Below are positions 35,790-42,590 of a DNA stretch of 56,599 bases, piece after piece. The DNA is taken from positions 1-56,599 of the forward strand of contig JAFTNJ010000008.1 in NCBI GenBank assembly GCA_017451915.1, read 5' to 3'. The translations under genes were made by a program, and so were the position numbers. The DNA is from Clostridia bacterium (GTDB lineage: Bacteria > Bacillota > Clostridia > Oscillospirales > CAG-272). The notes under the pieces are model-generated. The model ran no database searches. It was not told where the DNA came from and saw nothing but the letters and a program-made list of their open reading frames with translations. The first letter of the stretch is position 1, and each line of letters opens with the position of its first letter.

Positions 35790-36000
35790 CTGAAATTTTG
35801 GGCTTTTAGTGAAATATTTTGCCTTGCGGCAAAATGTGAAATAATTTCCTTACGGAAATTGTGAAATATCTCACGCCGCCTTCGGCTCTGTTCGATGTGA
35901 AATGAAATTTGCCCACATTCGCGTCAGCGAATATTTCACATTTGCGAAGCAAATATTTCACAGCGAAGCTATTTCACTTGCCCGAAGGGCAAATTTCACT
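35790..36000. repeat. Hairpin array with GTGAAAT / ATTTCAC spacers
   Basis: GTGAAAT occurs at 35809, 35836, 35861 and 35897, and its complement ATTTCAC at 35933, 35955, 35971 and 35993. Small hairpins fill the gaps, e.g. ATTTTGCC-TTGC-GGCAAAAT, AATTTCC-TTAC-GGAAATT, ATTTGC-GAA-GCAAAT and TTGCCC-GAA-GGGCAA. So four direct copies face four inverted copies and the whole can fold into one branched structure. No gene. Confidence 0.85.
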
Positions 36001-36001
36001 G

Positions 36002-36037: not shown

Positions 36038-36113
36038 TGGCAGGGGCAGAAGGACTCGAACCCACGACCCATGGTTTTGGAGACCAGTACTCTACCAACT
36101 GAGCTATACCCCT
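36038..36113 (-). tRNA. tRNA-Trp (anticodon CCA)
   Basis: The minus strand folds as a cloverleaf: 7-bp acceptor AGGGGTA / TGCCCCT, D-arm GCTC-AGTTGGTA-GAGT, anticodon loop CTCCAAA giving CCA, T-loop TTCGAGT, discriminator G and an encoded 3' CCA. A mismatch closes the anticodon stem (C27-T43), another lies in the T stem (T50-T64), and the D stem ends in G-T. Confidence 0.93.
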
Positions 36114-41164: not shown

Positions 41165-41563
41165 TTAAGAAAGCTGGTAAACCAGAAGGATCAGCGATTT
41201 GGGGACGTTTTCTTCCACGACGGCATCTATAACAAATTGCTTGGCCTCGGCAATCGCCGCGGAAAACAGCATTGCGGAAGTGTTCGAAAGACTGACGATC
41301 TCGGTAACAATGAGCACACTTGCCTCCCGAGTGTCGGGATCGACTGCCAAGGAGATCTCGCCCCTGGCTTGGGCGGCCACGATATGGCATTCAAAGAAAA
41401 CGGCGAATAATCGACCGCTTTCCTCCGTGTTGAGTTGGTTCAAAAAGGAATCCCGTTCCATGGCGCGGGAAAAAGCCGCCTGATATTTTTTCAGCCGCTG
41501 TACCATTGCGTCGTGGTTTTTTATTTTCGTATAATCAAAGTGTAAAACGTCATATTCCGCCAT
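41165..41563 (-). CDS. Hypothetical protein controlled by a structured leader
   Basis: 132 residues, no family recognised. It is mixed helix and strand, without signal or membrane segments; central text ARGEISLAVDPDTREASVLIVTEIVSLS suggests a small beta-sheet domain followed by a helix of small residues (AMLFSAAIAEAKQFVIDAV). Start at 41563 with GGAAAGGAA upstream. The mRNA begins near 41732 and has a ~165-nt folded leader ending in a terminator before the start codon, so expression is probably conditional. Confidence 0.68.
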   Translation of the reverse strand: MAEYDVLHFDYTKIKNHDAMVQRLKKYQAAFSRAMERDSFLNQLNTEESGRLFAVFFECHIVAAQARGEISLAVDPDTREASVLIVTEIVSLSNTSAMLFSAAIAEAKQFVIDAVVEENVPKSLILLVYQLS

Positions 41564-41590
41564 GGTGTTTTTCCTTTCCAAAATAAAAAA

Positions 41591-41732
41591 GTGCGCTCCA
41601 CAAGGGAACGCACCGAAAAAGTGTTATCCCCCATGTTGCTACACAAGCCTATTCCGGTTAAGGTATAAGGAAAAGAGAAAACACCTTTTACCAAAGTGTT
41701 TCCTTAACCGAAACAATATTTACTTGTGTAGC
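41591..41732 (-). ncRNA. Structured leader RNA with terminator (candidate riboswitch/attenuator)
   Basis: Minus-strand RNA. P1: GCTACACAAG (41732-41723) with CTTGTGTAGC (41647-41638), 10 bp. P2: CGGTTAAGG (41710-41702) with CCTTAACCG, 9 bp. P3: AAACACTTT / AAAGGTGTTT hairpin. Then a terminator GTGCGTTCC-CTTGT-GGAGCGCAC plus six Ts (41612-41585). The terminator holds CTTGTGGAGC (41604-41595), a 9-of-10 match to the 3' strand of P1. Does not match a riboswitch class I know. Confidence 0.7.
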
Positions 41733-41738
41733 GAGATC

Positions 41739-41767
41739 ATTATATCACAATTTTTGGAGAATGTAAA
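41739..41767 (-). promoter_or_regulatory. Promoter of the structured leader RNA
   Basis: Minus strand TTTACA (41767-41762), 17-bp spacer, TATAAT (41744-41739) with a TG extension; predicted start of RNA at about 41732, exactly at the P1 stem. Confidence 0.85.
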
Positions 41768-41949
41768 GAGATTTTCTAAAAAAGGCCGTGATACATTTAT
41801 TGGAACATACAGGAGAGCAAGACTCCTTACAAGATCCCGTCACGCTCCGCGCGCCGCCCTCCTTAAGGTCGGGTTCGACTGCGAAAACAGCCACCCCGGG
41901 CTGTTTTCTCCGCTCAGGATGACACGTTAAACGGGCGTTTTCATACACC

Positions 41950-41998
41950 GTAGGGGCGACCTGTGGTCGCCCGCGGGCGTTCAAAGAACGCCCCTACG
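41950..41998. repeat. Three-way-junction repeat, copy 2
   Basis: GTAG closes CTAC around two hairpins: GGGCGAC-CTGTG-GTCGCCC and GGGCGTTC-AAA-GAACGCCC. Compare the copy at 29622-29670. Confidence 0.8.
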
Positions 41999-42114
41999 AA
42001 TATATCAATTTTGTCGCTATGAACATATCACATCATTTTGCGAGCATAACGAGAAAACAAACCGCAAGCGGGACGGCCGCGCCTACTACAATGTAGCAAC
42101 GAAAACTTTTTTTT

Positions 42115-42383
42115 GTGTCATCCTGAGCGAAGTCGAACTTTTGCGCAATGAGAAAAGTTGCAAAGCAACGTTGCGAATGGAGCAAAAGCGCGAGACAAGG
42201 CGTGGAACGCCGGTCGAAGCGGGATCCACGAAGGATTACTGCTATCTTGTTGTTAGGAAAGTTACTTTTGTTAGCATATGAAGATAGCAAGACTCGTTAC
42301 GAGATCCCTTCGTCGCTTCGCTCCTTGGTTTTGCTCCTACGTCGCAAAACTTCGGCTTCGTTTCACTCCGCTCAGGATGACAC
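42115..42383. mobile_element. MITE-like element with 15-bp terminal inverted repeats
   Basis: GTGTCATCCTGAGCG at 42115-42129 is exactly complementary to 42369-42383; the pairing continues inward (GAAGTCGAACTTTTGCG against an imperfect complement). About 269 bp, no coding capacity. The right arm alone recurs at 41908-41925, so this is a dispersed, partly decayed family. Confidence 0.6.
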
Positions 42384-42407
42384 GTTAAACGGGCGTTTTC
42401 ATACACC

Positions 42408-42456
42408 GTAGGGGCGACCTGTGGTCGCCCGCGGGCGTTCAAAGAACGCCCCTACG
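42408..42456. repeat. Three-way-junction repeat, copy 3
   Basis: Identical to copy 2 at 41950-41998 and part of the 110-bp direct repeat. Confidence 0.8.
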
Positions 42457-42590
42457 AATATATCAATTTTGTCGCAGGAGCGACTGTTGCGAGCATAACG
42501 AGAAAACAAACCGCAAGCAGGACGGCCGCGCCTGTGCCGAATCGTTGTCCTTTTTCACTGTCAAAAAAGAGTCAAAATCCCGTCAAGCAC

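Follow-up and report, generated by a model that had tools for sequence, protein, structure and literature searches.

Riboswitches in the strict sense bind a small molecule or an ion directly and thereby alter gene expression, and transcription-terminating riboswitches with an anti-antiterminator exist as a general kind. The c-di-GMP riboswitches (GEMM) regulate surface and motility genes, and the raiA motif is a member of the Rfam catalogue. In the text covered for it, the raiA motif is described as a widespread structured RNA found in Clostridia, and a survey covered in part (PMC8040213) reports 3161 candidate structured RNAs from human microbiomes. We describe here an element on the minus strand of a 56,599-nucleotide stretch of DNA from a member of the Clostridia (contig JAFTNJ010000008.1; hereafter the window) that shares features with each of these systems, and which is probably an uncatalogued class of cis-acting, terminator-controlling, riboswitch-like RNA, as judged from its sequence and those of its homologues. 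We rate it as a new class within a known kind, the terminator-controlling leader RNAs. An earlier note, made from the letters of the window, had proposed a candidate cis-acting transcription switch at this place; the homologues support an element of that kind, but the exclusive pairing proposed for it is wrong. The observation itself is correct, and is weightier than one locus implied.

The likeness to anti-antiterminator riboswitches lies in a structured 5′ domain, a strand shared by sensor and antiterminator, and a terminator adjoining the ribosome binding site. Unlike those riboswitches, the element has no aptamer match in Rfam, its shared strand comes from a hairpin within the sensor (P3′) and pairs outside P1, its promoter belongs to the conserved unit, and its target genes are very diverse. 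It resembles the raiA motif, as far as the text covered describes that RNA, in being structured and widespread in Clostridia, but differs in being a multicopy leader with a terminator, and no Rfam match of the element to the raiA motif was found in the window or at 20 homologous loci. Literature searches, with supplements and most subscription journals outside their coverage, yielded no description of the motif, and the text covered of PMC8040213, PMC11109978, and PMC8632094 contains no matching motif. The terminator-bearing candidates of PMC8040213 could include the present motif, and the part of that paper covered does not describe a family like it.

The fold, which the earlier note did not recognize, likewise matches no Rfam 15 family at or above the gathering score. 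A permissive scan of the element strand gave Phe_leader (RF01859) as the best match, with 19.9 bits against a gathering score of 55 and an E value of 0.63; this top score is the extent of the likeness, whereas the score lies far under threshold and the element has no conserved leader peptide. Leader-peptide (translation-coupled) attenuation, to which this subthreshold match would point, is very improbable, as upstream open reading frames with a Shine-Dalgarno sequence and an ATG occur in 8/186 elements compared with 16/186 shuffled ones, and the distances from P1 to the terminator, taken modulo 3, are divided 62, 56, and 48 with no marked preference; with neither an excess of such frames over shuffled sequences nor a preferred phase, we rejected it. 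T-boxes gave no gathering-level Rfam match in the window and none on the element at E values up to 10. When the 20 homologous loci were scanned against Rfam with a limit of E = 0.5, nothing exceeded its gathering score except a tRNA adjoining one element, and HIV_POL-1_SL overlapped the element of one locus (L018) below threshold (29.3 bits against 54).

Anatomy, promoter, and distribution of the element

Comparison of sequences establishes the anatomy of the element, its coupling to a promoter, its place before genes, and the co-variation of four pairings. The element proper spans 148 nt (41732-41585, minus strand; Table 1), slightly offset from the interval 41591..41744 given for it in the earlier note, the parts of which are all present. 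The consensus promoter that was said to fire at the start of P1 is there, and P1, the 9-bp P2, the P3 hairpin, the intrinsic terminator, the ribosome binding site, and the 132-amino-acid (aa) gene all lie where they had been described. After the terminator hairpin (GTGCGTTCC/GGAGCGCAC) come TTTTTT, the ribosome binding site, and the ATG. Positions 41591-41744 fold with an energy of −58.6 kcal/mol, compared with −33.2 kcal/mol (SD 3.35) for 200 shuffled sequences, none of which was as low (0/200; z −7.58).

Table 1. Features of the element, its promoter, and the downstream gene in the window
Feature	Position	Strand	Remark
−35 box TTTACA	41762..41767	-	17-nt spacer to −10
−10 box TATAAT	41739..41744	-	Six bases 5′ of the element
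P1 5′ strand GCTACACAAG	41723..41732	-	Expected RNA start is 41732, the first P1 base
J1/2, unpaired conserved AUA (here AATATT, internal loop)	41715..41720	-	A, T, A at 93-97% in alignment A2
P2 5′ strand (9-bp stem)	41702..41710	-	Minimum free energy (MFE) structure
P3 5′ strand	41693..41701	-	Own versus swapped P3′ partner energies
P3′ strand and loop GGTAAAAGGTGTTTTCTC	41675..41692	-	Alternative partners: P3 5′ strand or A
P2 3′ strand	41655..41663	-	MFE structure
P1 3′ strand CTTGTGTAGC	41638..41647	-	P1 is 10 bp; covariation
Conserved linker AACAT (family mostly ARCAA)	41633..41637	-	Alignment A2
Strand A GGGGGATAACACTTTTTC	41615..41632	-	Putative partner P3′ (off) or B (on)
Strand B	41600..41613	-	Antiterminator (A:B) or terminator 5′ arm (B:C)
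Strand C, terminator 3′ arm	41591..41599	-	99.4% of cells paired; 7/9 pairs change on both sides
Terminator U-run	41580..41590	-	Sequence
Ribosome binding site region GGAAAGGAAAAACACC	41564..41579	-	Sequence
132-aa gene	41165..41563	-	ATG at 41563

In a DNA search (E ≤ 0.1), 31 of the 35 genus genomes contained similar stretches, many of which matched over the terminator only, and 14 full-length copies were aligned to build a covariance model (R1). With R1, the element is found in 31/35 genomes of the genus and, in the family sample, in 87/146 genomes and 54/71 genera (E ≤ 0.01 for both), in 75/245 genomes of the order sample (E ≤ 0.001), and in 61/245 of the class sample (E ≤ 1e-4). The phylum sample contains a single match (1/249), solely the genome of the window itself, and at least seven other class members in that sample are also without a match. 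The largest number of copies in one genome is 13 (G163, family sample). A pattern scan of named genomes gave at least 120 stretches, and all 100 of the loci on which R1 was run match it; among the matches listed, the titles name Clostridia, Oscillospiraceae, Ruminococcaceae, and Ruminococcus, or in some cases just Bacillota or bacterium, and the source, where readable, is mostly gut, rumen, or feces. The element set used below comes from the genus, family, and order searches, and comprises 189 distinct elements, of which 186 are full length; from the 101 + 104 R1 matches, seven repeats of place or sequence and nine weak opposite-strand matches were dropped, and 14 class loci (L208-L221) were left out. 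The pairing tests exclude 12 of the 189 elements that fail the motif rules, plus 4 in the second set.

Two types of element can be distinguished, a shorter one, to which the window copy belongs, and a longer one with extra sensor sequence and helices (L020, L023, and L030; helices recognized by eye). Copies may also stand in tandem, with three in a row in L188 and L310, and four within 1.8 kb in L063. One record titled 'Bacteriophage sp.' and marked UNVERIFIED (MT835845.1, 124-4245; L345) contains a complete element (90.6 bits) that precedes a lipoprotein-like gene; from neighbor genes recognized by eye, this phage-labeled record looks bacterial chromosomal. A mobile, phage, or plasmid repeat is unsupported: viral contigs gave no hits (0) to the exact pattern, which fits only some copies and excludes the window's own, a plasmid search with the window copy gave no hit, and the orientation of the element to genes is fixed.

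The promoter accompanies the element throughout. In 176/186 full-length homologues a −10 box fitting TANNNT precedes P1 by exactly six bases, compared with 11/186 when the upstream sequence is shuffled, and the TG of an extended −10 is present in 166/186. The second set gives 96/108 for a −10 at the six-base spacing and 96/108 for the extended −10, and among the 184 copies having a −10 box, 162 have a −35 with at least four of six matches to TTGACA. Because the spacing of the −10 to P1 is fixed, we regard the promoter as part of the conserved unit. A strictly defined start had to comprise an ATG with a ribosome binding site and an open reading frame of 50 codons or more, no further than 60 nt downstream. 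Such a start follows 116/184 elements, compared with 95/2974 random positions (3.2%) and 1/80 on the 5′ side; the remaining 68/184 elements fail this test. The element is a predicted 5′ leader with its own promoter, directly before a gene. The same features bear on whether it might instead be a stand-alone, trans-acting small RNA whose place before genes is incidental. A promoter, a closed 5′ end, and a terminator would make a self-contained unit, and tandem copies exist (L188, L310), but the frequency with which the element directly precedes a start codon and ribosome binding site speaks against this, and a co-varying antiterminator (see below) would have no obvious use in such an RNA; we consider it improbable.

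Covariation and mutually exclusive pairings

Covariation was assessed in an alignment (A2) with 93 distinct rows tested, in which opposite-strand rows are still included. For P1, P3′:A, and the terminator taken together, 96.0% of cells are paired and 22/30 pairs have changed on both sides; none of 500 shuffles (0/500) attains the observed pairing or double-change values, and sliding the columns by one to three positions reduces pairing to 36-64%. Both-side changes are found in 11/12 pairs of P1 and in 7/9 of the terminator. The inner pairs of P3′:A are nearly invariant A-U, except that G-U also occurs at one position; each of the outer four changes on both sides, yet these are paired in just 82% of cells. 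Because A2 was fitted to the R1 pairs, among which P3′:A is not included, the A2 result leans to P1, P3, and the terminator. The fold described in the earlier note is accompanied by covariation in P1 and P3, with P1 as given above and P3 favoring its own partner (z −16.5), and compensatory changes across homologues are found in P1 and the terminator. From P1 and P3, the 5′ part is predicted to be a sensor fold that is conserved and covaries. In P1, not only the pairing but also the sequence is conserved (ACACAA/UUGUGU), and there are conserved unpaired positions as well: AUA after P1, a G(G/A)(U/C)AAAA loop, UU(U) between P3′ and P2′, and mostly ARCAA after P1.

The conserved switch would be a chain of four pairings, namely P3 5′:P3′, P3′:A, A:B (the antiterminator), and B:C (the terminator). 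Pairing energies were compared between each strand's own partner and swapped partners from other elements, with the common AAAA and the U-run removed. The own partner is favored in all four, with −9.1 versus −5.6 kcal/mol for P3 5′:P3′, −11.4 versus −7.7 kcal/mol for P3′:A (z −17.2), −14.1 versus −10.0 kcal/mol for A:B (z −16.4), and −16.2 versus −11.2 kcal/mol for B:C (z −21.8); no such preference is seen for a control segment (z 0.8). When the swapped partners are those of the 10 nearest relatives, the own partner is better in 1037/1420 comparisons for P3′:A (47 ties; z −11.2) and in 1030/1420 for A:B (65 ties; z −10.8). In the second set, consisting of 60 nonredundant new elements from named genomes in which P3′:A, A:B, the control, and P1 5′:terminator were tested, the mean energies give z −7.0 for P3′:A, −5.5 for A:B, and −0.4 for the control. 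The rank measure is weak in this set, with the own partner in the best tenth for 18/60 (P3′:A) and 14/60 (A:B), compared with 10/60 for the control; the variety of A and B is narrowed here because the scan pattern fixed part of both. Across 268 elements, the bases of A that are common to P3′:A and A:B amount to a mean overlap of 0.72 of the smaller pairing. The two pairings use largely the same A bases and are therefore mutually exclusive, and the element has a predicted intrinsic terminator opposed by a conserved antiterminator that excludes it.

This chain differs from the switch proposed in the earlier note, in which the 5′ strand of P1 would pair with either its 3′ strand or a copy of that strand in the terminator. 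The nine-of-ten match of the terminator sequence CTTGTGGAGC to the P1 strand CTTGTGTAGC is real in the window copy, but it is not kept in relatives: only 2/142 nonredundant homologues reach 9/10, the window copy being among these, and the P1 3′ 10-mer finds in the terminator a best match of 5.98/10 on average, near the 5.86 of shuffled sequences. Nor is there a preference of P1 5′ for its own terminator in mean energy, with the own better in 628/1420 nearest-relative comparisons (144 ties; z −0.4) and z −1.1 in the second set, even though 20/60 own terminators there rank in the best tenth. As far as the homologues speak, the match is a coincidence of the window copy, and we give the exchange of P1 partners next to no probability. 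A constitutive leaky terminator or insulator, lowering expression without sensing, has only a small probability too: a fixed terminator could do without conserved unpaired bases and without conserved pairings that exclude one another.

For the window RNA, the calculated energies are −15.8 kcal/mol for the P3′:A duplex (with no pseudoknot penalty), −11.7 kcal/mol for the P3 hairpin, −15.1 kcal/mol for the A:B hairpin, and −14.0 kcal/mol for the B:C hairpin, so modeled as closely matched alternatives. When growing lengths are folded, A:B appears as soon as B is included, and the terminator has to wait for C. The MFE structure of the full 148-nt RNA contains P3 plus the terminator, and for this reason the balance between A:B and B:C depends on kinetics. 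From these energies and growing-length folds we infer that free A corresponds to read-through and A held by P3′ to a stop; that transcription is actually switched, the direction of switching, and a deciding ligand, either a small molecule or a protein, belong to the same inference.

The preferred reading, with the P3′:A/A:B/B:C chain at its center, would work as follows. Transcription would begin at P1 from the promoter, which is strong and of the extended −10 kind, and P1-P2-P3 would form in the 5′ part of the RNA. The emerging strand A would face two exclusive partners, B or P3′. In the on state, A:B would block the terminator and the downstream gene would be transcribed; in the off state, A would pair with P3′ (the P3 3′ strand and the AAAA loop), allowing B:C to form and stopping transcription ∼20 nt before the start codon. 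The choice would be set by a signal that stabilizes either P3 (on) or the P3′:A pairing (off). With P1 and P2 intact, P3′:A is a pseudoknot with a linker of ∼5 nt, and it therefore requires that either J1/2 bends or P1 opens; a pseudoknot that folds back would be consistent with the A-rich conserved linker and the AUA loop. The pairings are defined precisely enough for mutation-and-compensation testing.

Downstream genes and the proposed deciding signal

Pfam was run on 116 downstream proteins of 129 that are nonredundant, and the matches include 20 BspA-type LRR_5 proteins, 4 AMP-binding proteins, and 2 YpsA-like SLOG proteins; of the 48 other Pfam families listed, 25 occur in one member only. 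PADLOC assigned seven families to the downstream proteins, with one member each. A simple regular expression for the lipobox matches 34/108 regulated open reading frames, compared with 26/480 in a background of crudely called frames on 80 named loci (L222-L301), rather than in annotated genomes. The regulated genes thus appear mutually unrelated, but enriched in lipoproteins and BspA-type proteins. They have no common pathway and hence give no clue to the ligand; from the mixture of target genes, a global signal is favored over a pathway metabolite, and a ligand common to so many unlinked genes would probably be such a signal.

Many copies per genome before unlinked genes for surface proteins and lipoproteins is also a likeness to the c-di-GMP riboswitches, from which the present element differs in having no Rfam match. 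No GGDEF protein match was found in the genome of the window (87% complete). Of the 87 element-bearing genomes in the family sample, 22 appear in the list of 42 that have a GGDEF match and 65/87 are outside that list, the two lists having been compared by hand on the assumption that both draw on the same 146 genomes. Because GGDEF is missing from the window genome and 65/87 genomes are unlisted, c-di-GMP as a required ligand is unlikely, and with no GGDEF protein found in the host the element would not be assigned to the c-di-GMP riboswitches.

We rank a small molecule or second messenger first as the deciding ligand, and hold this to be modestly probable. Ranked second, and rather unlikely in our estimation, is that the same RNA is an attenuator run by an RNA-binding protein, acting as antiterminator or anti-antiterminator. 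Conservation of P1 in sequence as well as pairing would suit protein recognition, the lack of a common pathway among the regulated genes is consistent with it, and many copies per genome fit a global regulator; the conserved unpaired AUA, ARCAA, and UUU, however, would suit a ligand pocket equally. More specifically, and as a tentative proposal in which we have somewhat less than even confidence, the element may be a new class of riboswitch, where a widely used signal of gut Clostridia makes or breaks a pseudoknot of the sensor hairpin with the antiterminator strand (P3′:A), controlling a surface regulon (lipoproteins and BspA-type leucine-rich proteins) together with small proteins via promoter-coupled copies that number up to about a dozen in a genome. 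If this is true, an RNA switch outside Rfam 15 is common to a large part of one class of animal-gut bacteria, and would provide a handle on when mostly uncultured gut bacteria express surface lipoproteins and adhesin-like proteins.

The small proteins include a recurrent downstream partner rich in cysteine (LTPGEPxVCLGNGEQGFECCCDECDYFLLCFPEFD), seen at L034, L036, L038, L068, L088, L141, and other loci. At L028, L121, and L125, elements precede peptides of 38-47 aa that by eye resemble ribosomally made peptide precursors.

The 132-aa protein encoded downstream of the window element has no Pfam or NCBIfam match. A protein search with it in a database of genome contigs found no relative, and among 98 genomes its relatives are two genes, both in one genome (G001), with 31% and 28% identity; both also sit behind copies of the element. 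An AlphaFold2 model, built from three sequences, predicts an alpha/beta fold with a mean pLDDT of 77.1.

Upstream of the element, the window contains a perfect 110-nt direct repeat (41908-42017 and 42366-42475). The sequence GTGTCATCCTGAGCG occurs three times in the window, and there is a 25-nt inverted repeat (CGTAGGGGCGACC...); the region of the 110-nt repeat looks like a dispersed intergenic repeat. Elsewhere in the window, a Gut-1 RNA (RF01706, 67.5 bits) and a tRNA gene lie 39 nt apart, the pair occupying 35928-36001 and 36041-36113, both on the minus strand.
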